Source: Microvirga terricola (GTDB lineage: Bacteria > Pseudomonadota > Alphaproteobacteria > Rhizobiales > Beijerinckiaceae). Taken from it: a DNA stretch of 64,000 nt. Within the stretch, counting starts at the first letter, position 1; the number at the start of each line of letters is the position of its first letter. Location of the stretch: positions 1 to 64,000 of the forward strand of contig NZ_JAATJS010000004.1 in NCBI RefSeq assembly GCF_011777495.1, given 5' to 3'. Below are positions 5,687 to 25,998 of the stretch, one piece after another. The notes beneath the pieces are model-generated. The model was not told where the DNA came from. It saw nothing but the letters and a program-made list of their open reading frames with translations, and did not search any database. The translations under genes and the position numbers were made by a program.

Positions 5687-6790
5687 TTGTATTCTCTAGG
5701 ACAGGACAGCCATGCGCTATCGTTCGCGTCGGGGGCACTCTTGGCTAGACGGCTACGACTCACGAAGTTCCGCGAGCTCTCGCTGGACGATCCTTTTTTC
5801 GACAGTCTCAAAGCCGGGTACGGCGGTTTCCCTGAATGGTTCACGAGTAAGGCCGATGAAGACCTGTATGTCGTCGACGATGACGGCAAGCTCAGCGGCA
5901 TGATCTATCTGAAGCGCGAGGCCGGTCCTATCGCCGACGTCACGCCGCCGTTGCCAGCGGGCACATGGCTGAAGGTCAGCACGCTCAAGATCGAAGGAAA
6001 GGGCACCAAGCTCGGGGAGCGAGTGCTTAAGAAGATCTTCGATGCAGCCCTGGCCGAAGGTGCCGACGGGATCTATGTCACAGTCTTCTCGGTCCATAAG
6101 AAGCTCATCGAGCTCTTCAAACGCTACGGGTTCACCGAGTGCGCCTTCAAAGAAACAGAGGACGGAACCGAGCTTGTCCTGGCCCGCTCGCTCAGGGACA
6201 TGACCGGTGATCTCGTAGCAGACTACCCGTTCATCCATACGGCCGGCCAGAAGGCGTGGCTCCTGGCCGTCTATCCGGAGTATCACTCCAGGCTCTTGCC
6301 GGATTCGATCCTGAACAATGAGCCGCGTGAGATCATCCAGGACGTCTCGCATACGAATACCATCCACAAGATCTATATTGGCAAGCTCGCACTCACGCGA
6401 ATGTCTCCGGGAGATGCGGTGATCCTCTACAGGACTACTGACAGGCAGGGGCATGCCTACTACCGGTCTGTGGTCACGTCAGTTTGCGTCGTGGAGGAGG
6501 TCCGTACGAAGCGGAACTTCGCAGACGTCGATGCCTTTGTAGAATATTGCCGTCAGCACAGCGTCTTTTCTGAAGATGAGCTCCGCGAACAGTTTTTGAC
6601 GTCGCCGCGCTTGTACCTGATCAAGATGACCTATAACGCAGCCTTTGGAAAGCGTTTGACCCGCGGAGCTTTGCTGGATGCGGGGCTTGTCTCGGAGCAA
6701 CCCCGCTGGGACCTGCGCTCGCTTTCTCAACGCCAGCTGCGCGATATCTTGGGTATGGGAAACGTCAATGCGCGTCTTATTGTCGATTAG
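5687..6790 (+). CDS. GNAT acetyltransferase fused to a PUA/EVE-like domain
   Basis: The first half is a GNAT fold: KFRELSLDDPFFDSLKAGY, then a strand pair DLYVVDDDGKLSGMIYLKRE, then LKIEGKGTKLGERVLKKIFDAAL as the acetyl-CoA loop and helix, and FKRYGFTE near residue 145. The second half (about 180-367) resembles PUA/EVE-type domains that read modified bases. It contains MSPGDAVILYRTTD and a strand VVTSVCVVEEV. No ATG is in frame near the start. TTG 5687 opens the frame, and TTG 5741, with GGGGG just upstream, is the better alternative. The ASCH gene starts inside this gene's 3' end. Substrate unknown; an RNA- or nucleotide-linked acetylation is inference. Confidence 0.7.
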   Translation: MYSLGQDSHALSFASGALLARRLRLTKFRELSLDDPFFDSLKAGYGGFPEWFTSKADEDLYVVDDDGKLSGMIYLKREAGPIADVTPPLPAGTWLKVSTLKIEGKGTKLGERVLKKIFDAALAEGADGIYVTVFSVHKKLIELFKRYGFTECAFKETEDGTELVLARSLRDMTGDLVADYPFIHTAGQKAWLLAVYPEYHSRLLPDSILNNEPREIIQDVSHTNTIHKIYIGKLALTRMSPGDAVILYRTTDRQGHAYYRSVVTSVCVVEEVRTKRNFADVDAFVEYCRQHSVFSEDELREQFLTSPRLYLIKMTYNAAFGKRLTRGALLDAGLVSEQPRWDLRSLSQRQLRDILGMGNVNARLIVD

Positions 6791-7187
6791 GCCGGTTCAC
6801 GTCGAGAACATCCTGCAAGGGATCAAGACCTTCGAGTTCAGGCGGAAGATATTCGCGCGCAAGGACGTGCAGACAGTGCTGATCTACTGCACCATGCCGA
6901 TCGGCAAGCTGGTCGGCGAGTTCGACATCGAGGACATCCTGGAGGACGCCCCCGATACCCTGTGGCAGATGACGGAGTGCGGATCCGGCATCAGCAAGGA
7001 GTATTTCGACGAATACTTCAAAGGCCGTGACCGGGCATTCGCCTTGAAGATCGGAGAGGTGCGGCCGTACAAGGAGCATGTCGCCCCCAGCGAGTTGATG
7101 GCCAACTTCACTCCTCCGCAATCCTATATGTACGTTGGTGACAGCCGTCACGAGCGGCTGTCCGGACGTCAGCTGGAGCTATTCTGA
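6768..7187 (+). CDS. ASCH domain protein
   Basis: The start at ATG 6768 lies 23 bases inside the end of the GNAT gene, so the two are translationally coupled. The 139 residues are a single ASCH domain of the PUA-like superfamily. The signature LLSIRPVHVENILQGIKTFEFRRK is split here as LLSIRPVHVENI and GIKTFEFRR (residues 4-26). A GKLVGEFDIEDI strand-helix and a C-terminal LSGRQLELF follow. ASCH domains are thought to bind RNA or modified nucleotides, and some hydrolyse them. The next gene starts 4 bases downstream, so it belongs to a three-gene unit. Confidence 0.8.
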   Translation: MRVLLSIRPVHVENILQGIKTFEFRRKIFARKDVQTVLIYCTMPIGKLVGEFDIEDILEDAPDTLWQMTECGSGISKEYFDEYFKGRDRAFALKIGEVRPYKEHVAPSELMANFTPPQSYMYVGDSRHERLSGRQLELF

Positions 7188-7190
7188 CGA

Positions 7191-7760
7191 ATGCGCGGAG
7201 AGACGATCGTCGTTTTTGGGATCTCGGGGGTCGGCAAGACATCGTCGTGCCTCGCGTTCGTCGCAGAAAACCCGGAGCACCTGCATCTCAGCGCGAGCGA
7301 ACTCTTACGCAGCGCCGCGGCGGCAGATCCCGCTTTGCTACGGATTGCGCCGGCGGACCGGATCCTTGAGAACCAGAGATTGCTGCCTGACGCGCTACAG
7401 GCCCGGCGCGAGGGCCAGTGGCACAGGCCCGTGCTGATCGACGCGCACAGCGTCGTCGACAATGATCGCGAACTCGTGCGCGTCCCCGTCGAGGTGATCC
7501 GGTCTCTCGATCCTGACGGGCTGCTCTTGTTGGAGGAGGCACCGGAAATCATAGCAGCACGCCGTTCGGAACTCGGCTCGCGCCGGCCGGCGCGTTCGAT
7601 CGATCAGATCGTCCATGAGGCCGAGGTCGCGCGCCAAGCCGTGCTCGATTATGCCAAGTATTTAGAACTGCCGCTCGAGGTCATAGATATGGGCGGGAAA
7701 GCCCCTCTCACATTCGAAGGGGCAGTGGCTGCGTTAAAGAACCGAATTCGCAAGCCCTGA
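7191..7760 (+). CDS. P-loop nucleotide kinase-like protein
   Basis: The Walker A motif GISGVGKTS is at residues 10-18. It is followed by HLSASELLR, which resembles the NMP-binding segment of adenylate kinases (HISTGDLLR-like). There is a VLIDAHSVV strand near residue 85 as a Walker B-like element, and an Arg-rich segment RRSELGSRRPARS that could be the lid. At 189 residues it has the length of small NMP kinases. It is the last gene of the GNAT-PUA/ASCH/kinase unit, starting 4 bases after the ASCH stop. A nucleotide or RNA 5'-end kinase is possible. The substrate cannot be told from sequence. Confidence 0.7.
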   Translation: MRGETIVVFGISGVGKTSSCLAFVAENPEHLHLSASELLRSAAAADPALLRIAPADRILENQRLLPDALQARREGQWHRPVLIDAHSVVDNDRELVRVPVEVIRSLDPDGLLLLEEAPEIIAARRSELGSRRPARSIDQIVHEAEVARQAVLDYAKYLELPLEVIDMGGKAPLTFEGAVAALKNRIRKP

Positions 7761-8247
7761 GTGGATTGAGAGGCGTGGAGCGTGGGTCGTTGTACCCCAG
7801 TTCAGCGGCATGTGGGACATAACGCCCGTTCTCCACCGAGGTGAGGTCGAAGCCATACCAGTCGAAGATCCTCTCAAAGGCAGGCAGCTTAGTGGAGCTG
7901 ACGGTCAGATGCGGCTTGTCGACGTCGAGGCAGCGCAGCAGACCGTCGAAGATGCGGACGCCGATGCCCCGGCCTACGTAGGCTGGGGCGACGCGGACCG
8001 TGCAGATCTTGCGCTCGTCAGCCTCCAGCTTGCCGATGCCGAGGCCAGCCAGCCGGCCGTCGCGCTCGATGCGCAGGAGCGTGCGCGTGCCGACCCTCAA
8101 GCCAGGCACGACCTTCATCCTGAACCAGACATCGATCCCTGGATAATCTTCGGAGAGTGGCAGCAAGAAGGCGAGCGCCTCCGCCTCCTCGGGAAGGAGC
8201 TCAAGAGCAGGGGTAGGTATTGGGAGGTGCGGTGCGAGAGCGGTCAC
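7708..8247 (-). CDS. GNAT family acetyltransferase
   Basis: The GTG start at 8247 has AAGGTAA upstream and lies 6 bases after the stop of the membrane-protein gene at 8254, so the two form an operon. The 179 residues show GNAT hallmarks: LAGLGIGKLE strand, TVRVAPAYVGRGIGVRIFDGLL as the acetyl-CoA pyrophosphate loop (R/Q-x-x-G-x-G type) near residue 90, and FDWYGF near 130. Its 3' end overlaps the end of the convergent kinase gene by 53 bases. It is distinct from the GNAT at 5687. Its substrate is unknown. Confidence 0.75.
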   Translation of the reverse strand: MTALAPHLPIPTPALELLPEEAEALAFLLPLSEDYPGIDVWFRMKVVPGLRVGTRTLLRIERDGRLAGLGIGKLEADERKICTVRVAPAYVGRGIGVRIFDGLLRCLDVDKPHLTVSSTKLPAFERIFDWYGFDLTSVENGRYVPHAAELGYNDPRSTPLNPLRACEFGSLTQPLPLRM

Positions 8248-8253
8248 GATGCG

Positions 8254-9348
8254 TTACCTTACCTGATCCGGAGCGGTTGGAGAAGGGGCGTGCTGGTCGG
8301 TTCCGGTGCGTGAAACGTCGGAACCGAGGAATACTAGACCTCCCGCATACTGGAGGCCGGAGGCAACGAGGTTTCCGAACACACCGAATAGAAACGCTAC
8401 GAACAAGTATGCGAGAAGTATCTTAAGGCCGCTCCGGCGCGTCCGGAGTTTCACGAAGGAGGAGAAGTCCGGAATGTTGGCGACGCCCTGTGCCGGCAGC
8501 TTTTTCCAGTGGTAGACCATCATGCCTTTGGGAATGCCGCTCGGCACGTAGTCGTTCCAGATCGGGTGCTCCAAGAGCCTTTTCTTGTGCGATTCGATGT
8601 TGCTCACTGCGAGCTCGGAAACGATCGGTACAGCCGTCAAAAAGGCTATAAGGCTGATCGGGATCTGGCCTTTAGCCTCGTCCTTACGGATTTGTGCCTC
8701 AATCTTTGTCGGCAGCGTTCGAGCCTCGTTTAGCCGGAAATCGAGGTATTCCACCTCTTCGAAGCCGCTCTGGAAGAGATGGTCGGTCGGGTAGATGACG
8801 CTTACGAAAGGATTGTCCTTTCCTTCTCTCATATAAATGCGAAGCCGAAAATATGCCCGCGTATCAGGCCGGAGATTTCGGCAAACAGCCTCGATCGCCG
8901 GGTGAGAGACCGTAATCAAAGTCCCTTCGTCAATCGGTTGAATTTCAAGCTCTGACTGATCGATGCCTGAAGCGGCCGGCATGAAACGGTGAACCCGGCA
9001 AAAAGGGGTTCCGTTCTGTTGCAGTTCGATACTCGCCGGGCCGGGTGGCCCCAGGGAGTTACAGCTCAGCGGCTCGTTAAAGATGCCTTGGGCGACCGAG
9101 GTCTCTTTGAAGTATGGGCCGCAATCCTCAATCGAACTCGGTTCGGCCCTGAACGGCAAGTAGATGCAAAGCTTCTCGAGCGAGGCCGGATGCGTCACCA
9201 TCGCTCCGACTTCCAGGAAGTCACGAACGGCAACGGATTTACGCTGTCTCGTGAACTCGGGATCGCCTGAGATGCGCCAATAGTTGAAATGAGTTTCGAT
9301 CGAGGGAGGCGGTCCACTTTGGTCGTGTATCGCACCCCATAGGGCCAT
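8254..9348 (-). CDS. Hypothetical membrane protein
   Basis: The 364 residues have a long soluble N-terminal part and two hydrophobic segments. One is at about 220-240 (ISLIAFLTAVPIVSELAV), and a longer one is near 310-345 (ILLAYLFVAFLFGVFGNLVA). The C-terminal tail is polar. I chose ATG 9348; a TTG at 9366 would add six residues. It is followed within 6 bases by the GNAT gene. I do not recognise the family. The coupling suggests the GNAT product modifies or assists this membrane protein, but that is inference. Confidence 0.5.
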   Translation of the reverse strand: MALWGAIHDQSGPPPSIETHFNYWRISGDPEFTRQRKSVAVRDFLEVGAMVTHPASLEKLCIYLPFRAEPSSIEDCGPYFKETSVAQGIFNEPLSCNSLGPPGPASIELQQNGTPFCRVHRFMPAASGIDQSELEIQPIDEGTLITVSHPAIEAVCRNLRPDTRAYFRLRIYMREGKDNPFVSVIYPTDHLFQSGFEEVEYLDFRLNEARTLPTKIEAQIRKDEAKGQIPISLIAFLTAVPIVSELAVSNIESHKKRLLEHPIWNDYVPSGIPKGMMVYHWKKLPAQGVANIPDFSSFVKLRTRRSGLKILLAYLFVAFLFGVFGNLVASGLQYAGGLVFLGSDVSRTGTDQHAPSPTAPDQVR

Positions 9349-9366
9349 ACTGCTGCTGAACGACAA

Positions 9367-10068
9367 GATCAGGCTCCAAAAACAACCACCAGTTACAATC
9401 GAGCGCGTTGTTCCTCAAGGGGGGCGAGGGGCTTTTCACACAAAAGTTCTTCTCAGAGAGAAAATTCGATTGGAGTGCAGGCTGGAAACTACGCCGGGAG
9501 GATCAATGGTTCAGTGATATCCCGATCGGGGAGCTATCTTGGGGAAAGCGCTCAAACTCTAATCCTGCTCGTCCAAGCCCATCATGGCTTCGACCTTCGT
9601 GCCCTCATCGGGATCGGTGATCCAATCATAAAGGGCCTCGCGGATGGCGGAGGTAGCCGAGATCATTGCCGCGATTGTCCCGCGGGTACTCTGGACTGCT
9701 CCTCCAATAATTACGGAACTCGCTGAGTTCTCTGATGTTTTGCGTCTCTTCCGCGTCTGAGAGTCGACGGCCCATAATTCGCTCTGGTTAAGGATGCGGC
9801 ACGGCCTTTCGATACGAGGACCACAGTCCGGGAACAGGCGTGCAGAGACCAAGAAGGCAGTCGTGCGGCCATAGCGGTGATTTCGATCGGTCCCTCGTGA
9901 ACCCGATCACGCCATTCGCCAGAATTCTTCTGAATTTTGGAAGCAGAGACGGATACCTCCGGGGCACTTCCTAGATATTCCATAACGCCTAACGGTGGAA
10001 AAGATACCCTTGCGGACGGGAGCATAAGGGCCCAGCCTGGGCAATCGATCAGGCAGGTTCGGTACGCA
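9367..10068. other. Gene-poor stretch between membrane-protein and CoiA-like genes
   Basis: Apart from the weak frame at 9559-9852 I see no gene here. It separates two divergent transcription units, so promoters for both are expected, but no clear motif was found. Confidence 0.4.
9559..9852 (-). CDS. Possible small hypothetical protein
   Basis: A 97-residue frame with a basic central part (DSQTRKRRKTSENSASS) and a C-terminus IREALYDWITDPDEGTKVEAMMG that looks like a folded acidic helix. No clear ribosome binding site and no family recognised. It may be spurious. Confidence 0.25.
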   Translation of the reverse strand: MVSARLFPDCGPRIERPCRILNQSELWAVDSQTRKRRKTSENSASSVIIGGAVQSTRGTIAAMISATSAIREALYDWITDPDEGTKVEAMMGLDEQD

Positions 10069-11988
10069 ATGGATGCAGCCAGGACGGTTGGAGCGCTCAA
10101 ACTTTCGCCGTTGGGCGGGTTCGCTTGCCGTGATGGCCGGGAGAGCCTCGTGTTCGGGGAGCGCTCGGACGGATCGATCGCTCACATCTCCGAGGTGTCC
10201 CGCGGCAGCGCCTGCGATTGCGTATGTCCCGGGTGCGGCGCACCTCTTGTGGCACGGAAAGGGGACCTGAAGGATCACCACTTCGCTCACAAGGGAAGCC
10301 CTGATGGCAGTCCATGCCGGACCGGGCCGGAGACCGCCCTGCACAAATTTGCCAAGGAGGTGCTCGCGGATCGGCTCGAACTCGTCCTTCCGGCGTACGG
10401 ACTGACCGATGGGGAAGAGGAGTGGATCGGTTACGCGGGCGGAGTGTACGCCTTCGATGCGGCTGTGCTGGAGAGCAGGCTAGGCGAGATCATTCCCGAC
10501 GTGATCGTCCGAAAGGGAGATCGCGATCTTCTTGTCGAGTTTCGCGTCACCCACGAATGCGGACCGGAGAAGATTGCACGGATCAAGGCCATGGACATCG
10601 CGACAATCGAAGTGGATCTGTCCGAGTTGCCGCGGGACATCTCCCGGCAAGGGCTGGAGGAGGCCATCCTGAAAATCGCCCCCCGGGATTGGTTGCACAA
10701 CCCGAAGCTTCGCAATGGCGAGGCCTATCTCAATGAGCGTCGCCTGGAGCGACAGAGGGTTTTTCGCGAACGCGCTGCAACACTCCGGAGAGATTATGCG
10801 AAAGCATGTGCCGAGATGCAGGACGACGATATTCCCTGTCGCGCACACGACGAGGCCGCAGCCGACGGTCTTGGACGCGCGGTGGAGATTGAGGTGCCGG
10901 GGTTCGGGTGCTTCCTTGTGCCACCATGTGAGTGGCAGGCAACGATGCTGATGGAAACGATCGAGGCTGTCCTTGCAGGCAAGATGCGGTTCATGACGAC
11001 GCAGGGATTGTTGGGACGGATCGAACGGAAAGGCTGGGTCCGGAAAGGGTTCTCGGGGATAGCGGATACCCTTGCTGCGGCAGTGCGAGCGGAAGGAACG
11101 CAGTTCGCGACGCCTTTAGAGGCCGTCTCTACATGGGTTTCTGTCTTGAGCGAGCTGAGTATCGTCGAGTCTTGGGATTTCAAGGGTCGATGGATACTGA
11201 CGCAGGGTACGCTGCAATCCATTCAGGAGCTCCGCCACCGCCGTGCGCGACCGAACCTCCGGATGGACGAGATCCAAAAGGATGTGAAGAGCGTCCTAAG
11301 CGACCTCCCCGAAGAGGAGCTTGCGGGATTCTCTCTTGACCGATGGGCCGAGGAGCCTCTCCCAGGCAGGGAGTACTCGATCACCGAGGCGGTGCATCTT
11401 GATGGCCCAGAGTTCGACCGCATCCGCACGGAGCTGACGAATATTGATCGCGCAATCCGCTTCAGCCCGAAGATTAATATCGACCTGATGGGGCTGCCGC
11501 TCGCGGGCAAGCTCGCTCGGCGCCTTGAGGAAAAACGGAGGGAGGAGGAAGCCCGGGAGGTCGAGCGCCAGGAGAACGCCCGGCGCGATGCGGACGCACG
11601 TGGGGCCTGGATTATTAGCGATGCCCAGATCGGCCTGGGGATCGAGGGGAACGCTTGGACGGACGCTCCGAACGAGGGACTCGGCGGAAGGTCTCCGGTG
11701 GATGCCGCGCGCGAGAGCGCGGCAGGGCTGGTCGAGGCGACCAAGATCCTCGATGCCCTCTTGAGGCAGCGGGAGACTGATGCCCGCAAAACGCAGGTTG
11801 CGGAGAAGGCGAGAGAGGAACTCCGCAGGAAGGCCGCGAAAGTACACCAAGGCCAATACTTGGATCTCTACTTGAACACTGGGCAGCCGACCCTCGGAGG
11901 CAAGTCCCCCTCGGTCTACAGCGTCGACGAGGCGACGATGAGAAAATGCGTGGAGCTTACCCTCGTGGGTGGAAAACGTCGGCGTTGA
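10069..11988 (+). CDS. CoiA-like nuclease, long form
   Basis: ATG 10069 is preferred over the TTG at 9937, because the CoiA-like domain begins directly after it. Residues 53-74 hold a zinc-finger-like CPGC plus HHFAH, typical of the competence protein CoiA-like family. A restriction-endonuclease-type core follows: IIPDVIV (D144), LLVEF (E157) and RVTH. CoiA-like proteins act on DNA during natural transformation, and many relatives sit on mobile elements. The remaining 430 residues are mostly helical, with a coiled-coil-like Arg/Glu stretch at about 480-520 (LEEKRREEEAREVERQENARR-type). The long extension is unlike the short competence protein, so a separate role, for example in defence, is possible. 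Confidence 0.65.
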   Translation: MDAARTVGALKLSPLGGFACRDGRESLVFGERSDGSIAHISEVSRGSACDCVCPGCGAPLVARKGDLKDHHFAHKGSPDGSPCRTGPETALHKFAKEVLADRLELVLPAYGLTDGEEEWIGYAGGVYAFDAAVLESRLGEIIPDVIVRKGDRDLLVEFRVTHECGPEKIARIKAMDIATIEVDLSELPRDISRQGLEEAILKIAPRDWLHNPKLRNGEAYLNERRLERQRVFRERAATLRRDYAKACAEMQDDDIPCRAHDEAAADGLGRAVEIEVPGFGCFLVPPCEWQATMLMETIEAVLAGKMRFMTTQGLLGRIERKGWVRKGFSGIADTLAAAVRAEGTQFATPLEAVSTWVSVLSELSIVESWDFKGRWILTQGTLQSIQELRHRRARPNLRMDEIQKDVKSVLSDLPEEELAGFSLDRWAEEPLPGREYSITEAVHLDGPEFDRIRTELTNIDRAIRFSPKINIDLMGLPLAGKLARRLEEKRREEEAREVERQENARRDADARGAWIISDAQIGLGIEGNAWTDAPNEGLGGRSPVDAARESAAGLVEATKILDALLRQRETDARKTQVAEKAREELRRKAAKVHQGQYLDLYLNTGQPTLGGKSPSVYSVDEATMRKCVELTLVGGKRRR

Positions 11989-15159: not shown

Positions 15160-17376
15160 TTAGGCGTCAACGTCATGGAAGATTAAGCCCGCGGCTTCAG
15201 CAGGGGCGACGCTGGATTTTTCCATCGAAGACGGAGTCCACGCCGAGCCATCTGGAGGCTGTTGCCGAGTTTCGAGCTCTTCGATATGGGCATCGATCTC
15301 GGCGTAAAGCTCGTCAAAGGCCTCATCGCACTCGAGCTCGAAATAGGCTTGGGCTGCTTGCAAGTTCTCCTTGAAATCTCGGTACATGCCCACCTCGTCA
15401 TCTGAGGAATAGCGGCCGAATTTGCTGAAAATGCTAGGGATATCGGAGAGCCATTCCGTCCGAAATGCCTCGGTATAATCCACGAACTCGGCGTCTTTGA
15501 AGACCTGCCGGAGTACCTTGTCCGTGAGCGGCTCGGCGTCCAGCCAGGTGATCGAGTGTTTTCGGATGTCCGCAACGATGCTCTGGCGTACCTCCTTCGG
15601 AAGCAAGTCGCACGACGCCAGGGCGGCGATCAGGAGTTTTCCGCTGAGCGTCTGGCCGCCTGCTTGCACCTGGGCGGCCCACTCCAGAATGTCGGGTCGC
15701 GCCTCCAGTATCAGGACGAGAAAGGCTTTTTCGCACCGTGCGCCTAGGAAGGACTTCAACGATTCGTCCAAAGGGCAGGCCTTCAGCCGCGCGACTAGCC
15801 CCGGATAGAGTGCGGGTGGGATGCGGATGCGCCCGTTCTCAGCGGCCTTCGGATGGCACGCCACTTCACCGAGCAGGCGGTCAAGCTTAGCACCATGGGC
15901 GTAGAGCTCCACCAATTCGGGCGAGGCCGAGACCAAGGTGGCGAAGGCGTCGGTTACCGTGGCGTGGCGGAACACCCACCGATCGCCGTCATCCTCCGAT
16001 ATCAACCGGGTAAGGCTGTCGTTGAGGTGCTGCATCGCGCGGGCCAGGTCGGCGGGCTTCACGCCCATGAGACGAGTGACCATCTCGAGCGACGGAGTCG
16101 CCTTGATCGGAGATGGCACTCCGGTTTGCGAATTCAGGAAGATCAGAGCGATCGCAGCGCGGGATGGGTCGTCCAACTGCGCCAGCACCTCGGTCAGGAA
16201 CTCGACCGGGTGCTCCACTAGGCGAGTTAGCCGCTCGTCGCTAATAGCGAGGTTCTTGGTAAAGAGGGGATCGCCAAGCCGGCGGGCGGTTTCCGGTAAG
16301 AAAGCCTTGTTGACCGCGATCGCCGGCAGGAACGGTTTCAGACGTTGGCGCATCTCCTGAGGCTGGACGCGGCGCACGTGATTGTAGAGCATCTGAGCAC
16401 GTTCCTCATCGGAGAGCGCCTGGACATTAACGACGACTTGGCTCTCCTTGAGCAGTGAGAAGGCACTCGTCTTCAAGTGGGGCTTGGCAGCCTCCCAGAT
16501 GTAATTCCGAGATGTGAAGACGATGCGCGCTCCGCCTTCGACGGCGGCGCGCAAGGTGCCCAGCTCGGCGTTCCAGCGGCTCATCCGAGAGGCATCGAAG
16601 TGGTTCGGGCCGAACGCATCATCGACCCAGAGGAACTGCTTTTCGCCTGGGTGCCAGAGGTTCAACTGTTCTGGTGAGTTAATCTTTAAGGCACCCAAGC
16701 AGCCATCGTCGATGGCGCCTAGTGCCAGAATCGCCGCGATCGTAGATTTGCCCGAGGCGGGGTCGCCAAGCAGGATGGCGAAGCCATGCGCCTGCAGCGT
16801 CTTCACGGCGGACCGGTAGGCGTCCGTCGGCACAAAGCAGCTAAGGTCGGACCCCATGGAGTCCAGAATGGCCTTCGCCTGCTTATAGCCATGTCCGGTG
16901 ATGATGTGTGACAGGTCACCGATGCCGTATACGCGTGGCACCAGCATGCGCAACTTGGGGTTCTCGGTCAACTGCTGGACGATCCAGGTTCCGCCGAACG
17001 TACGGCATTTCTTGACGCCCACACCTTCGAAAGCGGCGCAGATTTGGGCGTCGGCCTCACCCGAGACGCCAGCGTTGGTCATAATGATGTAGTCATCTGC
17101 CAGCCCGTCAGCTGCAAGCTTTTCGGCCTTGGGCAACTCGTCTTTCAGGTGTGACAGGGCAAGACTAGCTCCCGGCTTTCCCAAAAACTTGCATTGAATG
17201 GTCGACTTGGCCGGAATTCCATCTAGTCCTTTCCAGCGTCCGAGGAACGCCGCGTCGCGCCCGCCGTCGTTCGATCCGAGAAAAGTCTGCACCGGCCGCT
17301 TTAACACCTCAGCGGCGACGGCAGCGGCCAAGTCCTGGAATGCCTTCCAACCAAGCTTACTAAGGTCGTAGTTCAC
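15160..17376 (-). CDS. Restriction-endonuclease-fold / nSTAND-like NTPase
   Basis: The 738 residues open with an Mrr-like nuclease domain: LGWKAFQDLAAAVAAEVL, GGRD at 38-41 and QCK at 61-63, matching a D...(Q/E)xK active site. A P-loop NTPase domain follows, with Walker A GDPASGKST at 204-212, Walker B LWVDDAFG near 247, and a TSRNY segment near 285 that fits a sensor. This is the layout of the nSTAND3 family. The C-terminal 350 residues are helical, with no repeats I can name; in STAND proteins this part senses the trigger. The protein should be a cytosolic defence nuclease switched on by NTP-dependent oligomerisation. It is divergent to the OLD gene, 166 bases away. Confidence 0.75.
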   Translation of the reverse strand: MNYDLSKLGWKAFQDLAAAVAAEVLKRPVQTFLGSNDGGRDAAFLGRWKGLDGIPAKSTIQCKFLGKPGASLALSHLKDELPKAEKLAADGLADDYIIMTNAGVSGEADAQICAAFEGVGVKKCRTFGGTWIVQQLTENPKLRMLVPRVYGIGDLSHIITGHGYKQAKAILDSMGSDLSCFVPTDAYRSAVKTLQAHGFAILLGDPASGKSTIAAILALGAIDDGCLGALKINSPEQLNLWHPGEKQFLWVDDAFGPNHFDASRMSRWNAELGTLRAAVEGGARIVFTSRNYIWEAAKPHLKTSAFSLLKESQVVVNVQALSDEERAQMLYNHVRRVQPQEMRQRLKPFLPAIAVNKAFLPETARRLGDPLFTKNLAISDERLTRLVEHPVEFLTEVLAQLDDPSRAAIALIFLNSQTGVPSPIKATPSLEMVTRLMGVKPADLARAMQHLNDSLTRLISEDDGDRWVFRHATVTDAFATLVSASPELVELYAHGAKLDRLLGEVACHPKAAENGRIRIPPALYPGLVARLKACPLDESLKSFLGARCEKAFLVLILEARPDILEWAAQVQAGGQTLSGKLLIAALASCDLLPKEVRQSIVADIRKHSITWLDAEPLTDKVLRQVFKDAEFVDYTEAFRTEWLSDIPSIFSKFGRYSSDDEVGMYRDFKENLQAAQAYFELECDEAFDELYAEIDAHIEELETRQQPPDGSAWTPSSMEKSSVAPAEAAGLIFHDVDA

Positions 17377-17542
17377 TATCCCCCACCGCCTCCGTCGATT
17401 TTGGCCGCATACTTCCGCTCAGAGAATGATTCCCAGAAGCGGCATCAAGGTCCTCGCGGATCAAGCTCTTTGGTAGAGCGTGAAAGGCTTTACCTAGCCG
17501 TAGACTCGTAATTTGATGATACTAAGCGCGGGAAGGGGCAAC

Positions 17543-19468
17543 ATGCGTATCAACACCATCCGGATTCAGAACTTCCGGTCGTTCGACGACCTCTCCATTT
17601 CGCTAGAGAATTTTACGTCCCTCGTCGGACCAAACGGGGCGGGAAAGTCAACGATTCTCTGCGCCCTCAATATCTTCTTCAGGGAGATTGATGGAAGCGC
17701 CACCAGTACGACAGATCTGGATGAAGAGGATTTCCACAATCGCGACACTTCCCGTCCGATTGAGATCACAGTCGCGTTTGGCGACCTGAAACCTGAAGCG
17801 CAGACGGAATTCGGGGAATATTACCGGCAGGGCGAACTCATCATCACCGCGAAGGCAACATTCGATCCCATCACGGGGTCAGCGAGTGTCCGTCAGTTTG
17901 GTCAACGCCGGGCGATGGAAGTCTTCAAAGGGTACTTTGAAGCCTACAACGGCGGAAAATCCGCGGCCGACTGCAAGGCTGAGTTCGACAAGATCCGAGC
18001 GGCAGTTCCAGGAGTGACGGCAGCGACTAGCAAGGATGCCATGCGCGACGCACTGCGCGCCTATGAGGAAGCTCACCCGGCAGAATGCGTCCTCATTCCC
18101 AGCGAGGACCAGTTCTATGGGTTCAGCAAAGGGGCCAATCGCCTCGCGAAGCACGTCCAGTGGGTCTACGTTCCTGCCGTTAAGGATGCCACAAAGGAAA
18201 ACGTGGAAGGGAAGAACACGGCCTTGGGGAAGATCCTCGCACGCACGGTTCGCGCCAAGGTGAGGTTCGACGAGGAGATCAACAAGCTCAAGGAGGATGC
18301 GCTCGCCCGCTATCGCGATCTCCTTAAGGAGCAGCAGGGTGCGCTGGACGACATCTCCAAGGCCCTCAGCAAACGGCTAGGCGAATGGGCACACCCAGAA
18401 GCCACAGCCCGTCTATCGTGGGCGGAAGACGTGAAGAAGTCTGTCCAAGTAGAGGAGCCGATCGCGAGATTGTTGGCGGGAGAAGGCGCGTTCGAGGGCG
18501 AACTTGCGCGGTTCGGCCACGGGCTCCAGCGCTCGTATCTGCTGGCCTTGCTTCAGGAATTGGCCGCCGCAGACGATCCTGCTGCTCCCCGCCTGCTTCT
18601 TGGGTGTGAGGAGCCCGAACTCTACCAGCATCCGCCGCAGGCCAGACACCTTGCTACCGTGTTGCAGACGCTTGCCGACCACAATGCCCAGGTCATCGTC
18701 TCGACCCACAGCCCTTATTTTGTCAGCGGCCGATATTTTGAAAGCGTCAGGATGGTGCGCCGGGATGCGGGCAAGAAATGCTCAAACGTGTCGGCGGTGT
18801 CGTTCGATGATTTGGCCGAGAAGCTGTCTGGCATTCTCGGTGAGAAAGTGCTGAAGGCGGATGCCCAAATGGCCAAGTTGCATCAGGCGATGCAGCCTCA
18901 TCTAAATGAGATGTTCTTCGCACCCAAACTCATTTTCGTCGAAGGCCTTGAAGACATTGCGTACATCAATGCCTGGATGATGCTGTCGGGACGTTGGGAA
19001 GAATATCGGCGCTATGGCGCCCATATCGTTCCCACCAATGGAAAAGGCTACATCATCGAGCCACTCGTCGTTGCGGATATGATGGGCATTCCTGCCTTCG
19101 TCCTGTTCGATGCTGACGGAAACAAGACCAACGAGAACGAACGTAAGAAGCACGAAAAAGACAACATAGCCATCGTGACGGCTCTCGGCGGCGACGGCAA
19201 GACGCCATTCCCAACGGATACAGTATGGGAAAAGCATTATGTCCAATGGCCTCACAATTTTGGGGCTACGCTCCGAGCCGAGGTCGATAAGGGTATTTGG
19301 GACACTACGTTCGGGAAGGTTTCAAAAGGTCTCGGTAATCCGGATGGCAGCTTTACCAAAAACCCCATTCATATTGCGCATCATGTTGAACTGCTGATGC
19401 AGGAGAAGGCGATCCCGAAGTCGCTCGAAGAATTGTGCGGGCACTTGCTAGGGTTTTGCGCCAGCTAG
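17543..19468 (+). CDS. OLD family ATP-dependent endonuclease
   Basis: ATG 17543 follows GGAAGGGG at a proper distance; the ATG at 17513 is less likely. The N-terminus MRINTIRIQNFRSFDD and Walker A GPNGAGKST (30-38) begin an SMC/RecF-like ATPase. LLLGCEEPELYQHP and VIVSTHSPYF near residues 350-395 are its Walker B and H-loop. A TOPRIM nuclease domain follows, with FVEGLEDIAYINAW near 470 and VLFDADGNKT near 520. This is a class 1 OLD protein, the stand-alone type known from phage P2 Old and several defence loci. It lies next to the nSTAND-like gene in opposite direction; whether they act jointly is not known. Confidence 0.85.
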   Translation: MRINTIRIQNFRSFDDLSISLENFTSLVGPNGAGKSTILCALNIFFREIDGSATSTTDLDEEDFHNRDTSRPIEITVAFGDLKPEAQTEFGEYYRQGELIITAKATFDPITGSASVRQFGQRRAMEVFKGYFEAYNGGKSAADCKAEFDKIRAAVPGVTAATSKDAMRDALRAYEEAHPAECVLIPSEDQFYGFSKGANRLAKHVQWVYVPAVKDATKENVEGKNTALGKILARTVRAKVRFDEEINKLKEDALARYRDLLKEQQGALDDISKALSKRLGEWAHPEATARLSWAEDVKKSVQVEEPIARLLAGEGAFEGELARFGHGLQRSYLLALLQELAAADDPAAPRLLLGCEEPELYQHPPQARHLATVLQTLADHNAQVIVSTHSPYFVSGRYFESVRMVRRDAGKKCSNVSAVSFDDLAEKLSGILGEKVLKADAQMAKLHQAMQPHLNEMFFAPKLIFVEGLEDIAYINAWMMLSGRWEEYRRYGAHIVPTNGKGYIIEPLVVADMMGIPAFVLFDADGNKTNENERKKHEKDNIAIVTALGGDGKTPFPTDTVWEKHYVQWPHNFGATLRAEVDKGIWDTTFGKVSKGLGNPDGSFTKNPIHIAHHVELLMQEKAIPKSLEELCGHLLGFCAS

Positions 19469-19900: not shown

Positions 19901-22900
19901 TTACGAACACCCCGTCGTGCTGCCGCACGTATCGCACTTCAAACACGTCCCGTTCCGCACCAGCGTGAAGTTCGCGCATTCGGGGCACGCCTCACCGACA
20001 TAGCCCTTCATTTTCGCTTCTGCGCGCTTGTCGGCGAGGGAGGCTGAGGCTGACGGAGCGGTGAAGCCGAGTTTGGCGATGTCGGCTTCGCCGACCTTGT
20101 CCTCGTGCTCGACGAACTCACCCTTGAGCGCGGTCGCGCCCATGGTGAGGCCCGTGGTGCCGGTGCGCTGGCCGTTGCCTCCGGCGCCGCCGGTGATGAG
20201 CATCAGGCGGTCGGAGTTGCCGCGCACGAAGCCGCGCGAGACGACGGCTGCGGCGGGAGCCGCTTCCGGCGCCTTCGACTGGGCTTCGCCCGCGCCGATG
20301 GTGGTGGGGCCGGCTTCCGAGGCGTCCACGTGGGCGAGGTCGTTGCGGCCGAGATAGGACACGGCCAGCTCGCGGAACACGTAGTCGAGGATCGACGTCG
20401 CGCTCTTGATGCGCTCGTTGCCCTGCACGAAGCCCGCGGGCTCGAAGCGCGTGAAGGTGAAGGCCTCCACGTATTCTTCCAGCGGCACGCCGTATTGCAG
20501 GCCGAGCGAGATGGCGATGGCGAAGTTGTTCATCATCGCACGGAAGGCTGCGCCTTCCTTGTGCATGTCGATGAAGATTTCGCCGAGGCGGCCATCGTCA
20601 TATTCGCCCGTGCGGACATAGACCTTGTGGCCGCCCACAACCGCCTTCTGGGTGTAGCCCTTGCGGCGGTCGGGCATCTTTTCGCGCTCGTGGGCCGCGA
20701 CGACGCGCTCCACGATCTTTTCGACGATGCGCTCGGAGACGTGCGCGGCCTTCGCGGCGGCGGGGACGGCGGAGAGCGCCTCGGCGGCGTCTTCCGCATC
20801 CTCTTCCTCGTCGGCAATGAGCGCGGCGTTGAGCGGCTGCGAGAGCTTGGAGCCGTCGCGGTAGAGCGCGTTCGCCTTCAGCGCCAGCTTCCAGGACAGC
20901 ATGTAGGCGTTCTTGCAGTCCTCGACCGTGGCGTCGTTCGGCATGTTGATGGTCTTGGAGATCGCGCCCGAGATGAAGGGCTGCGCCGCCGCCATCATGC
21001 GGATGTGGCTCTCGACCGAGAGATAACGCTTGCCGATCTTGCCGCAGGGATTGGCGCAATCGAAGACCGCGTAATGCTCGACCTTCAGGTGCGGAGCGCC
21101 TTCGAGAGTCATCGCGCCGCAGATGTGGATGTTCGCGGCTTCCACATCGGCCTTCGAGAAGCCGAGGTGAGAGAGCAGGTCGAAGGACGGATCGTTGAGC
21201 CTGTCCGCCGGGACGTTGAGCGTGCCGGTCAGGAAGTCTTCGCCGATTGTCCACTTGTTGAAGACGAACTTGATGTCGAAGGCGCTCTTCAGGCCCTTCT
21301 CCACCGCCTCGATCTTCTCATCCGTGAAGCCACGTGCCGCAAGCGAGCCCGGGTTGATGGCGGGCGCCTGGCGCATGGAGCCGTGGCCCACCGCGTAAGC
21401 CTCGATCTCGGCGATCTCGGATTCTCGATAGCCCAGCGCGCGCAGCGCATCCGGCACGGCGCGGTTGATGATCTTGAAGTAGCCACCGCCTGCGAGTTTC
21501 TTGAACTTCACGAGAGCGAAGTCGGGCTCGATGCCGGTGGTGTCGCAATCCATCACGAGGCCGATGGTGCCGGTCGGCGCAATCACGGTCGACTGCGCGT
21601 TGCGGTAGCCGTGCTGCTCGCCGAGTTCGAGCGCCTTGTCCCAGGCCGCCTTGGCATGGGTGATAAGGCTCTGATCGGGGCAGGAGGCGTGATCGAGCGG
21701 AACCGGGTTGACCGAGAGACCCTCATAGCCTTCCGACAGACCATGCGCTGCGCGGCGATGGTTGCGGATGACGCGCAGCATGTGTTTCGCGTTCTTGACG
21801 TAGTTCGGGAACGGCCCGAGCTCGCCCGCGATCTCGGCGGAGGTCGCATAGGACACGCCGGTCATGATGGCGGTGAGCGCGCCGCCGAGCGCACGGCCCT
21901 CATCGGAGTCGTAAGGCAGGCCCATGGTCATGAGCAGGCCGCCGATATTCGCGTAGCCGAGGCCGAGCGTGCGGTACTCGTAGGACAGCTCCGCGATTTC
22001 CTTCGACGGGAACTGCGCCATCATCACCGAGATTTCGAGAACGACGGTCCAGAGCCGGCAGGCATGCTCGAACGCATCCGCATCGAAGCGCTTGGCGTCG
22101 CGGTCGAAGAACTGCAGCAGGTTCGCGGAGGCGAGATTGCAGGCCGTGTCGTCCAGGAACATGTATTCCGAGCACGGGTTCGACGCGCGGATGCGGCCAC
22201 CGGCGGGGCTGGTGTGCCAGTCGTTCATGGTGGTGTTGAAGTGCAGGCCCGGATCGGCGGACGCCCAGGCGGCGTAGCCGATCTGCTCCCACAGGTCGCG
22301 GGCTTTCAGGGTCTTGAGAACCTTGCCGTCCTTACGCGCCTTCAGGTGCCAGTCTCCGTCCTTTTCGACCGTGCGCAAGAAGTCGTCGGTGAGCGAGACG
22401 GAGTTGTTGGAGTTCTGACCAGAGACGGTGAGATAGGCTTCCGAGTCCCAATCGGTGTCGTAGATCGGGAAGTCGATATCCGTGTAGCCCTGGCGTGCAA
22501 ACTGGATGACGCGCTTGATGTAGTTGTCCGGGATCATGACCCGGCGCGCCATCTTGATTTCCTTCTTCAGAGCCGGGTTCTTCTCCGGATCGAAGCAGGC
22601 ATCGCCTGGCGCTTCGCAGTTCACGCAGGCTTTCAGAATGGCCTTGAGGTGCTTGTTGGCGAGCTTGGAACCCGCGACGAGGGCCGCGACCTTCTGCTCT
22701 TCCTTCACCTTCCAGTCGATATAGGCCTCGATATCCGGGTGATCGACATCGACCACCACCATCTTGGCCGCGCGGCGCGTGGTGCCGCCGGACTTGATCG
22801 CGCCCGCAGCGCGGTCGCCGATCTTGAGGAAGGACATGAGGCCGGATGAGCGGCCGCCGCCGGAGAGCTTCTCGCCTTCGCCGCGCAGGTTCGAGAAGTT

Positions 22901-23599
22901 CGAGCCGGTGCCGGAGCCGTATTTGAACAGGCGCGCCTCACGAACCCATAGGTCCATGATGCCGCCTTCGTTCACCAGGTCGTCCTCGACGCCCTGGATG
23001 AAGCAGGCATGCGGCTGCGGATGCTCGTAGGACGACTTCGACTTGGTCAGCTTGCCGGTCTTGTAGTCGACATAATAGTGGCCCTGGCCGGGGCCATCGA
23101 TGCCGTAGGCCCAGTGCAGGCCAGTGTTGAACCATTGCGGCGAGTTCGGCGCGACCATCTGGTTGGCGAGCATGAAGCGCAGCTCGTCATAGAAGGCCTG
23201 GGCGTCCTCTTCGGAGGTGAAATAGCCGCCCTTCCAGCCCCAATAGGTCCAGCAGCCGGCGAGGCGGTCAAAAACCTGCTTGGAGGAGATTTCGGAGCCG
23301 TAGCGTTGATCTTCGGGGAGGGAGGCGAGCGCCTCCTCATCCGGCACCGAGCGCCAGAGCCAGGAGGGAACGTCGTTCTCCTCGACCTTCTTCATGCGCG
23401 CAGGCACGCCGGCCTTGCGGAAATACTTTTGCGCCAGAACGTCGGACGCCACCTGGCTCCAGGTCTCCGGAACCTCGATATTCTCAAGCCTGAAGACGAT
23501 CGAGCCGTCCGGGTTGCGGATCTCGCTCGTCGCGAGCCGGAAGGCGAGGGAGGAATAGGGCGAGAGCCCCGATTTCGTATAACGCCGCTCAATCCGCAT
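19901..23599 (-). CDS. nrdJ: Adenosylcobalamin-dependent (class II) ribonucleotide reductase
   Basis: The 1232-residue protein reduces ribonucleotides to deoxyribonucleotides with adenosylcobalamin, without oxygen dependence. The start [18 protein letters not shown] is typical of the alphaproteobacterial form. The active-site N-x-C-x-E motif is NPCSE at 475-479. A cysteine at 200 ([11 protein letters not shown]) fits the first of the redox pair. [11 protein letters not shown] near 235 is the substrate-binding part. An insert with four cysteines ([12 protein letters not shown]) is near 325-336. The C-terminus CPECANF...[14 protein letters not shown] holds a zinc-binding and disulfide-relay segment. 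AAGGA lies eight bases before the start. The gene stands alone, with a long upstream region and its own terminator. Confidence 0.95.
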
Positions 23600-25094: not shown

Positions 25095-25862
25095 CTAAAG
25101 CAAAAAGTATCCCTTCGAGAGGCTGGAAACGCCTTTGACGTGAATGGCGAAATCCGCGTTGCCGTCCCCGTTGACGTCGCCGAGTACCATGACGCCGCCT
25201 GACGCCTTTTCGTAACGCAACTCGCCGGCTTTCTTATGGAAGGGATTCTTTCCGATAAAGGTGAATGCCTGGTTCCCCGCGACATTCGTCCTTGCATCGA
25301 TCGAATGCAGATCGATCCTGTCTCGCTGGGCTGTCGAGAAATCATAAATCACATCGCGCCCGGCCGATGAGACCGTGCTGTCGCGGATCGATTTGAATAC
25401 GAAAACGTCGGCGCCGGCACCGCCATAAAGTCTGTCCGCGCCCTGACCGCCTGTCAGCGTGTCGTTGCCGGCAAAACTCTCGAGCTTGTCGTTGTAGCGG
25501 CCGCCCCTGATCTGGTCGTTGCCGGCCAGGGCGGAGGCGAAGACACGGCGATCATCCGAGAGCGAGAGAGTATTGGCAGCGGCGACGAGGGACGGGACGG
25601 AAATGCCCAGGCCGTCAATCGAGCCGACCTTGCTCCCGTTCAAGAACCCCGCGTAGCGGGTCATGACCCCTGCTGTCGGAATGCCGTTGCTGTCATAGGT
25701 GAGGCCTTGGCCCCGGAACTCGTCGCGCGCGTATCCGCTTGTGCCATAATTCACCGCAAACACGGTTGCCGTGCGTGTATAACTGTCGCCATCCAGGAGA
25801 GCGCTCAAATCGAGGATTTTGAAATCGAATCCGAACGGTCCGGACCAGGTCAATGTTGCCAC
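25095..25862 (-). CDS. RTX calcium-binding protein with M10-type C-terminal domain
   Basis: A GTG at 25862 is preferred, with AAGAGG nine bases upstream; the frame opens 14 codons earlier. The 255-residue protein has an N-terminal beta domain starting VATLTWSGPFGFDFKI. RTX nonapeptides follow: AGNDQIRGG, AGNDTLTGGQGADRLYGGAGADVF near 125-155. The C-terminus matches the serralysin C-terminal domain, with IYDFSTAQRDRIDL and FTFIG...GELRYE. It has no protease motif. Such proteins are secreted by type I systems through an uncleaved C-terminal signal and fold on binding calcium outside. No transporter gene is in the window. Confidence 0.8.
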   Translation of the reverse strand: MATLTWSGPFGFDFKILDLSALLDGDSYTRTATVFAVNYGTSGYARDEFRGQGLTYDSNGIPTAGVMTRYAGFLNGSKVGSIDGLGISVPSLVAAANTLSLSDDRRVFASALAGNDQIRGGRYNDKLESFAGNDTLTGGQGADRLYGGAGADVFVFKSIRDSTVSSAGRDVIYDFSTAQRDRIDLHSIDARTNVAGNQAFTFIGKNPFHKKAGELRYEKASGGVMVLGDVNGDGNADFAIHVKGVSSLSKGYFLL

Positions 25863-25998
25863 GTTATATCGCCTCTTAATCCTAACGTTAGGGAATATCA
25901 GCACGGCGAAAACCGTGAATCAACTCCTCGTTGGAAGTACGGACACCGGCGAGACGCACGGTGACTGTCGAGGAGCCGGAAACCTCAGAGCGGGAATT

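Follow-up and report, generated by a model that had tools for sequence, protein, structure and literature searches.

The window analysed here, a stretch of 64,000 nucleotides of Microvirga terricola DNA (contig NZ_JAATJS010000004.1), harbours five closely linked genes, A to E, encoding a GNAT protein with an EVE part (A), an ASCH protein (B), an adenylate-kinase-like P-loop protein (C), a stand-alone GNAT protein (D) and a protein with a predicted membrane anchor (E). It is judged an even chance that these genes form a conflict module, spread by horizontal transfer, that is centred on the GNAT-EVE/ASCH pair, resembles toxin-antitoxin systems and works as proposed below. The three-gene core is already known; its extension by D and E was not found in print. 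A sequence-only reading of the window had put forward A, B and C facing D as a candidate new system. These four genes are real, and the combination of a GNAT protein with a PUA-superfamily (EVE) part, an ASCH protein and an adenylate-kinase-like P-loop protein is indeed a recurrent multi-gene unit: the three families are found together in unrelated genomes, which is not explained by chance. The unit had been taken to end at 8247; gene E, linked as tightly as D, also belongs to it. The belief that no such system had been described was mistaken, as the core appears in Bell et al. 2020 (PMC7641849), the A-B pair corresponds to PADLOC candidate PDC-M11 and a homologous pair carries the labels GevT/GevA. 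The claim that the unit lies in a defence-rich island held in part: two PADLOC-matching proteins are encoded close by, whereas 10 other ORFs of the island have no PADLOC match.

Gene A (5741..6790, plus strand) encodes a GNAT-EVE protein of 349 amino acids, a homologue of PDC-M11A and GevT. Comparison with homologues favours the TTG at 5741 as its start over the earlier in-frame TTG at 5687, from which it had originally been read. Gene B (6768..7187, plus strand), encoding an ASCH protein of 139 amino acids homologous to PDC-M11B and GevA, overlaps A by 23 bases (6768..6790, plus strand), exactly as first reported. The length of this overlap is conserved: of the 110 same-strand A-B pairs counted, 97 overlap by exactly 23 bases and 10 by 29 bases. 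Redundant loci (L016-L021, L030-L033 and L053-L055, the window's own copies included) were removed before this count, as were pairs on opposite strands, those separated by over 200 bases (B-A-C order) and those in which the start of B could not be recognised. In two viral loci B lies on the opposite strand from A. Gene C (7191..7760, plus strand), for an AAA_17 P-loop protein of 189 amino acids, follows B after 3 bases and not after the 4 bases first given. Between C and D there is no gap at all: these convergent genes overlap tail to tail by 53 bases (7708..7760, read from the sequence), and an overlap of 6-74 bases was present in all 9 relatives measured. Gene D (7708..8247, minus strand; 179 amino acids) is separated by 6 bases from gene E (8254..9366, minus strand), which encodes a beta-rich protein of 370 amino acids with a predicted C-terminal membrane helix and without a named family.

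Protein A matched PDC-M11A of PADLOC at 7e-125 over residues 23-367 of the 367-residue reading from 5687, and shares 46.3% identity with the protein that carries the GevT label in Escherichia phage PhiR47_2. Its GNAT domain was recognized by Pfam (PF00583, 1.2e-4), and in the structural model (pLDDT 85.4) the GNAT fold comprises residues 1-154. Pfam made no EVE call in the window's own protein A; in alignment A2, 11 of 38 relatives matched PF01878 (EVE; Pfam, E <= 0.01). Since the structure matches listed for A cover the GNAT part, the assignment of an EVE domain rests on Pfam matches in relatives, a product name and the published description. According to Pfam and the model, a PIN domain is absent from the window's A, which begins with the GNAT fold; among eight longer A proteins tested, six gave a weak PIN_3 match ahead of the GNAT part, all under the Pfam cut-off. 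The acetyl-CoA loop of A (GxGTKLGE) has Lys/Arg at position 90, which we read as the site of the Gly that normally opens the GNAT loop motif, and acetyltransferase activity of A is therefore not assured.

Protein B scored 20.8 bits against the Pfam ASCH family, just below the cut-off of 21.2 bits, matched PDC-M11B at 1.8e-45 and is about 54% identical to GevA of PhiR47_2. Its closest solved relatives are the entries of ZmASCH (5GUQ, 5GUS, 5Y6B and 5Y6C; profile E 3.6e-28), a protein of the same family. In the available part of its description ZmASCH was found to bind nucleic acids and to cleave single-stranded RNA in vitro, an activity termed weak by its authors, and no cleavage of DNA was seen (PMC5615036). 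The equivalents of ZmASCH Tyr47 and Ser128 are invariant in all 18 aligned members of the B family, whereas the position of Lys53 is occupied by Gly in 14 of the 18, the window's B included, and by Lys or Arg in 4. ASCH was the only family matched by the window's B in Pfam, NCBIfam and PADLOC, and no helix-turn-helix (HTH) or ribbon-helix-helix (RHH) was matched in Pfam. Of the B proteins run against Pfam, that of locus L026 alone has an HTH ahead of ASCH (4e-9). Two other ideas about B were discarded. Comparison with YqfB-type ac4C amidohydrolases (K21, T24, R26), made by motif spacing and not by alignment to YqfB, showed that K20 and R25 are kept and that the proposed Thr nucleophile is replaced by Glu23 in 18 of 18 members. 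A profile link of B to the C-terminal part of A reached a probability of 3.5 and was set aside.

Protein C belongs to the AAA_17 family (Pfam, 1.1e-13), with the P-loop G/K, D84 and H86 invariant in all 18 aligned members, and archaeal adenylate kinases are among its best solved relatives. The sequence-only reading had named a housekeeping kinase as an outcome that would speak against the unit; C was rejected as such an enzyme, as it scored 48.4 bits against PRK04040 (adenylate kinase; equivalog cut-off 155) and is itself the only C match in its genome. Protein D scored 23 bits against the Pfam GNAT family, just below the cut-off of 23.6 bits, and matched PDC-M11A weakly (1.3e-5). An hhalign comparison of its profile with that of A (E 6.2e-6, probability 85) shows D to be a relative of A's GNAT domain. 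For protein E, nothing in Pfam, NCBIfam or PADLOC exceeded the cut-off, and it had no relative by sequence in the PDB, no match among viral structures at E <= 0.001 and no match in phage records; distant E genes do occur in viral contigs. A hydrophobic C-terminal segment is found in 116 of the 120 E homologues listed (120 of 174), among them the window's E. When the model of E (pLDDT 90.6) is set against the N-terminal domains of Ost1/ribophorin I and M1 aminopeptidases, identity is ~10% and Foldseek TM-scores are ~0.3; an arrangement may be held in common, with no evidence for a common function.

The arrangement of A-B-C facing D-E was found again in Sphingobium, Brytella, Rhizobium and Ochrobactrum. 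It is present in 5 of the 15 loci of the homologue set. Of 397 genomes from the order, 3 carry it (that of the window among them), and 5 encode close homologues of A (E below 1e-100). All five genes, in differing orders, are also found on plasmids of Pseudomonas, Nitrosophilus and Paenibacillus (L043, L044 and L045) and, in other orders, in viral contigs L067 and L070. Chance clustering was rejected on account of this recurrence across phyla. Plasmid records with E all hold A within 4 kb (7/7), against a background of 33 A records among 72,556. The distances of A and E homologues are correlated (0.70 for 46 pairs; shuffle maximum 0.18); the pairing was a proxy via record length, 46 lengths being common to lists that drew on 120 of 950 A homologues, with part of the candidates scored, and 120 of 174 E homologues. 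Two genomes with E that came up separately already belonged to the sample of 397.

The spread of the module is sporadic and horizontal, on mobile elements. Its homes are prophages, phage records and plasmids. Integrase genes accompany it in three loci: in L005 and L037 they lie immediately upstream of A, in L038 no more than 5 kb from the unit. In prophage Lj965 (L049) four tRNA genes are located directly upstream of the A-B pair. A link to tRNA via neighbouring genes was rejected: among 31 other loci only L002, L006, L008 and L037 hold tRNA/tmRNA genes, none of them within 1 kb; the window contains no such genes.

Operons of (PIN)-GNAT-EVE, ASCH and AAA_17 proteins are known from the work of Bell, Wolf and Koonin, who predicted a toxin-antitoxin function (Bell et al. 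2020; PMC7641849). The available part of that paper reports prophage and restriction-modification neighbours, with AAA_17 frequent and PIN optional. The window shares with these operons the GNAT-EVE fusion, ASCH and AAA_17, and differs from them by the absence of PIN and the presence of convergent D and membrane-anchored E; neither a second GNAT nor a membrane protein is mentioned in the part of the paper available (PMC7641849). The available parts of PMC12704722, PMC10853773 and PMC12707154 hold nothing further on the A-B-C operon. With regard to PDC-M11, A and B match its two parts strongly, whereas C and E match none. In phage PhiR47_2 (PV340567) the homologous pair, labelled GevT toxin and GevA antitoxin, lies directly downstream of cI with the gene order and 23-base overlap of the window, but this locus consists of two genes only, C, D and E not being detected there. 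A literature search retrieved no paper on PDC-M11 or GevT/GevA and, apart from ZmASCH, no experiments on proteins of the A to E families. GNAT toxins of the TacT/AtaT type acetylate charged tRNA and have a partner with an RHH/HTH DNA-binding domain. Like these, A and B combine an acetyltransferase with a small partner; unlike them, A has a fused EVE part and its partner is an ASCH protein without HTH/RHH match in Pfam.

In the working proposed here, A would bind RNA via its EVE domain and transfer an acetyl group onto it, most probably onto the amino group that a charged tRNA or a modified base offers. RNA as the target is suggested by the weak PIN_3 matches in longer relatives of A and by the cutting of single-stranded RNA by ZmASCH. 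Acetylation by A, acting as the toxin, would halt translation once infection has freed A, and the module may serve in phage defence. B, presumably made by translational coupling over the 23-base overlap, would be the antitoxin, silencing A by binding either its RNA or A itself. C, as an accessory that binds nucleotides, may sense or change a nucleotide or an RNA end, and D may modulate or replace A. E would anchor the complex at the inner membrane, where it may convey the signal or the damage.

Several other readings were weighed. The variant L035 (genome G175) has B-C facing D-E and no A match anywhere in the genome, and does not fit with A as the only toxin. It would be the minimal, D-driven form of a membrane-tethered two-writer system, in which the related GNAT proteins A and D acetylate RNA or one another, with effects that oppose each other or combine, B and C set the threshold, and tail-anchored E is an unrecognised membrane effector or sensor fired by phage disturbance; this arrangement is considered rather unlikely. 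L035 would also be accounted for if B were the effector, cleaving single-stranded RNA like ZmASCH and regulated by A and D through acetylation. The kinship with ZmASCH and the invariant Tyr47/Ser128 equivalents agree with such a role; the low activity of ZmASCH itself, the Gly at the Lys53 position and the antitoxin label of the ASCH protein in PV340567 do not, and it is regarded as quite improbable. HsdR near L035, together with the HTH of L026, fits with a DNA-modification or self-marking system, in which A acetylates an amino group of a DNA base, B recognizes the mark or brings in a partner and C contributes to the synthesis of a precursor. Acetylation of a DNA base was proposed by Iyer et al. 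2013, as cited by Bell et al., who cited HTH-ASCH and HsdS-ASCH fusions as an argument for the binding of modified DNA by ASCH (PMC7641849, available part). The weak PIN matches and the action of ZmASCH on single-stranded RNA and not on DNA favour RNA, however; in addition, the window's B has no HTH match and no other modification enzyme is found among the five genes. This explanation is held to be unlikely.

The last alternative concerns the extent of the system: A and B, with or without C, may be the whole of it, and D-E a separate two-gene cargo often carried on common mobile elements. In the homologue set 10 of 15 loci are without D or E, some of them ending at contig edges; where the sequence extends 3.5 kb or more to both sides of A, as it does in 10 of these loci, the five-gene complement is present in 4. 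Viral copies (best 80 of 143, many near-identical) consist of A-B only in 60 of 80, and in 42 of the 48 with as much flanking sequence. Given so many copies of A-B or A-B-C only, C, D and E are dispensable for the basic pair, and the silence of the available part of Bell et al. on a second GNAT and a membrane protein points the same way. On the other hand, D and E accompany A, B and C in different phyla even where the gene order is shuffled, the plasmid matches of E all occur with A, and D is related to the GNAT of A. Moreover, in 7 viral loci (best 80 of 143) D is missing and E directly precedes A-B; in L042 and L046 E, likewise without D, directly follows A-B or A-C. The cargo explanation is thought quite unlikely.

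The GNAT-EVE/ASCH pair has been predicted since at least 2020, and no mechanism for it was found in the literature consulted. E represents a family, with a predicted membrane anchor and without a named domain, that was retrieved only beside A when plasmids were searched by E alone. If D and E are parts of the system, its larger form is not fully covered by descriptions of two or three genes, and the alphaproteobacterial five-gene set offers a well-delimited locus for drop-out tests.

All four genes of the sequence-only reading are present in the window as it described them, small corrections aside. A GNAT-EVE protein (A; 5741-6790, +; 349 aa in the database copy) is followed by an ASCH protein (B; 6768-7187, +) and an adenylate-kinase-like AAA_17 P-loop protein (C; 7191-7760, +), which face a stand-alone GNAT (D; 7708-8247, -). 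The genes of the claimed layout stood, with the start of A moved to TTG 5741, favoured by homologues, the B-C gap set at 3 bases, and the 3' ends of C and D overlapping by 53 bases. Six bases beyond D lies a fifth gene, E (8254-9366, -), encoding a beta-rich protein with a predicted C-terminal membrane helix. Genes A to E are a recurrent, genuine unit. Among 15 genomic loci holding a close homologue of A, A-B-C faces D-E in five (L001-L005), the others showing A-B-C (3), C-A-B (1), A-B (5) or A alone (1); all five genes are present in 4 of the 10 loci with at least 3.5 kb on either side of A.

An order-wide search found A matches in 13 of 397 genomes, with the full set in three (the window, L037 and L038) and A-B (1), A alone (1), a longer A (7) or a weak GNAT match (1) in the remainder. 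Six of the seven longer-A loci are arranged B-A-C. At the remaining one, L028, AAA_17 shares a reading frame with A; this single open frame (784-2457) begins with PIN-like and GNAT sequence, ends with AAA_17 and lacks EVE, as though a deletion had joined A to C. E matched in 5 of the 397 genomes, with the full set in three; the match in G099 is a fragment full of stops. Genome G175 harbours B-C facing D-E (L035; 5231-7923 and 9427-12309) near a type I HsdR gene, and no match to A was found anywhere in this genome. Given this A-less locus, B, C, D and E may function without A. In a phylum-wide sample of 398 genomes, A occurred in 12 and E in two; both E-bearing genomes, which also have A, belonged to the order-wide sample too.

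Homologues of A were found in 33 of 72,556 plasmid records, 16 of 50,697 phage records and 143 viral-contig loci. All five genes occur on plasmids of Pseudomonas (C-A-B-D facing E), Nitrosophilus (E-D-A-C facing B) and Paenibacillus (C-A-B-E-D). The gene order is B-A-C-E, A being long, on a Paracoccus plasmid, and A-B-E on a plasmid of Rhizobium sp. NXC24. A plasmid search with E only gave 7 records, all on the A list with A at most 4 kb away. The best 80 of the 143 viral loci comprise A-B (60), A-B with C (11), E-A-B (7) and all five (2); among the 48 of these with 3.5 kb either side, 42 have A-B only. The basic pair does not depend on C, D and E, as the large number of A-B-only copies shows. 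A further search of viral contigs, with E, gave two loci, each of which has E next to B, C and D; one contig stops straight after B, with A not seen, and the other is that of L067. Distances of A and E correlate at 0.70 over 46 contig-matched pairs (shuffle maximum 0.18, 2,000 shuffles), part of which reflects common species history. D and E are likely members of the system, the chief addition to the first reading.

The A/B overlap is exactly 23 bases in 97 of 110 same-strand pairs counted, from an archaeal prophage to Bacillota, Bacteroidota and Pseudomonadota, a count inflated by near-identical prophages, and 29 bases in 10. Both frames encode recurrent residues, and thus sequence constraint besides translational coupling may keep the overlap. 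It is absent from L095 and L123 because B and C lie on the strand opposite to A. The convergent genes C and D share 6-74 bases at their 3' ends in all nine relatives measured.

By PADLOC profile, A and B are PDC-M11A and PDC-M11B. In the Escherichia phage PhiR47_2 record a homologous pair, named GevT toxin and GevA antitoxin, lies immediately downstream of cI, the position of rexAB in lambda; it occurs in 274 of 5,426 E. coli genomes (at least 99% identity), always chromosomally. A GNAT-EVE/ASCH pair was also seen directly downstream of four tRNA genes in prophage Lj965 (L049 5301-5983), and in prophage psiM100 (L052 3089-5881) the record's 'inserted fragment IFa' contains most of an A homologue. 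The available text of Bell, Wolf and Koonin (2020; PMC7641849) describes (PIN)-GNAT-EVE fusions with ASCH, often with AAA_17, as predicted toxin-antitoxin systems neighbouring prophage and restriction-modification genes, none of the modules having been characterised experimentally by 2020. The claim that no described system has this make-up therefore fails for the three-gene core, given these operons, PDC-M11 and the GevT/GevA label.

Integrase genes are found immediately upstream of A at two loci (L005 and L037) and no more than 5 kb from the unit at a third (L038). In the window, an nSTAND3 NTPase (15160-17376, -; nSTAND3 4.3e-39; PADLOC candidate PDC-S73 1.8e-28 over the first 334 residues) and an OLD-family ATPase-TOPRIM protein (17513-19468, +; closest to the PADLOC models Old and AriA, with AAA_15 and OLD-like TOPRIM matches in Pfam) both start within 10 kb of E. 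Ten other island ORFs had no PADLOC match. A 683-aa protein (9937-11988, +) gave a CoiA N-terminal-like match on the very edge of the Pfam cut-off and no PADLOC match. The class II ribonucleotide reductase (19904-23599) is taken as where the ordinary chromosome begins. Outside the island lie RTX calcium-binding repeat proteins with M10-peptidase-like regions (41506-43737 and 25095-25904, -).

On the simplest interpretation, the unit would be a toxin-antitoxin-like conflict module in which A acts as an RNA acetyltransferase and B restrains it. RNA would be the favoured target because of the PIN_3 matches N-terminal to GNAT in six of eight longer A proteins tested, weak and below cut-off, and the ssRNA activity reported for the ASCH relative ZmASCH in the available part of PMC5615036. 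Of the ZmASCH residues, B conserves Tyr and Ser but not Lys; the Thr nucleophile of the ac4C amidohydrolase YqfB (PMC6972931, as available) is missing from B as well, so that RNA binding is the likelier role of B than deacetylation. The A-E unit is a variant, not found described in print, of a known but little-tested kind.
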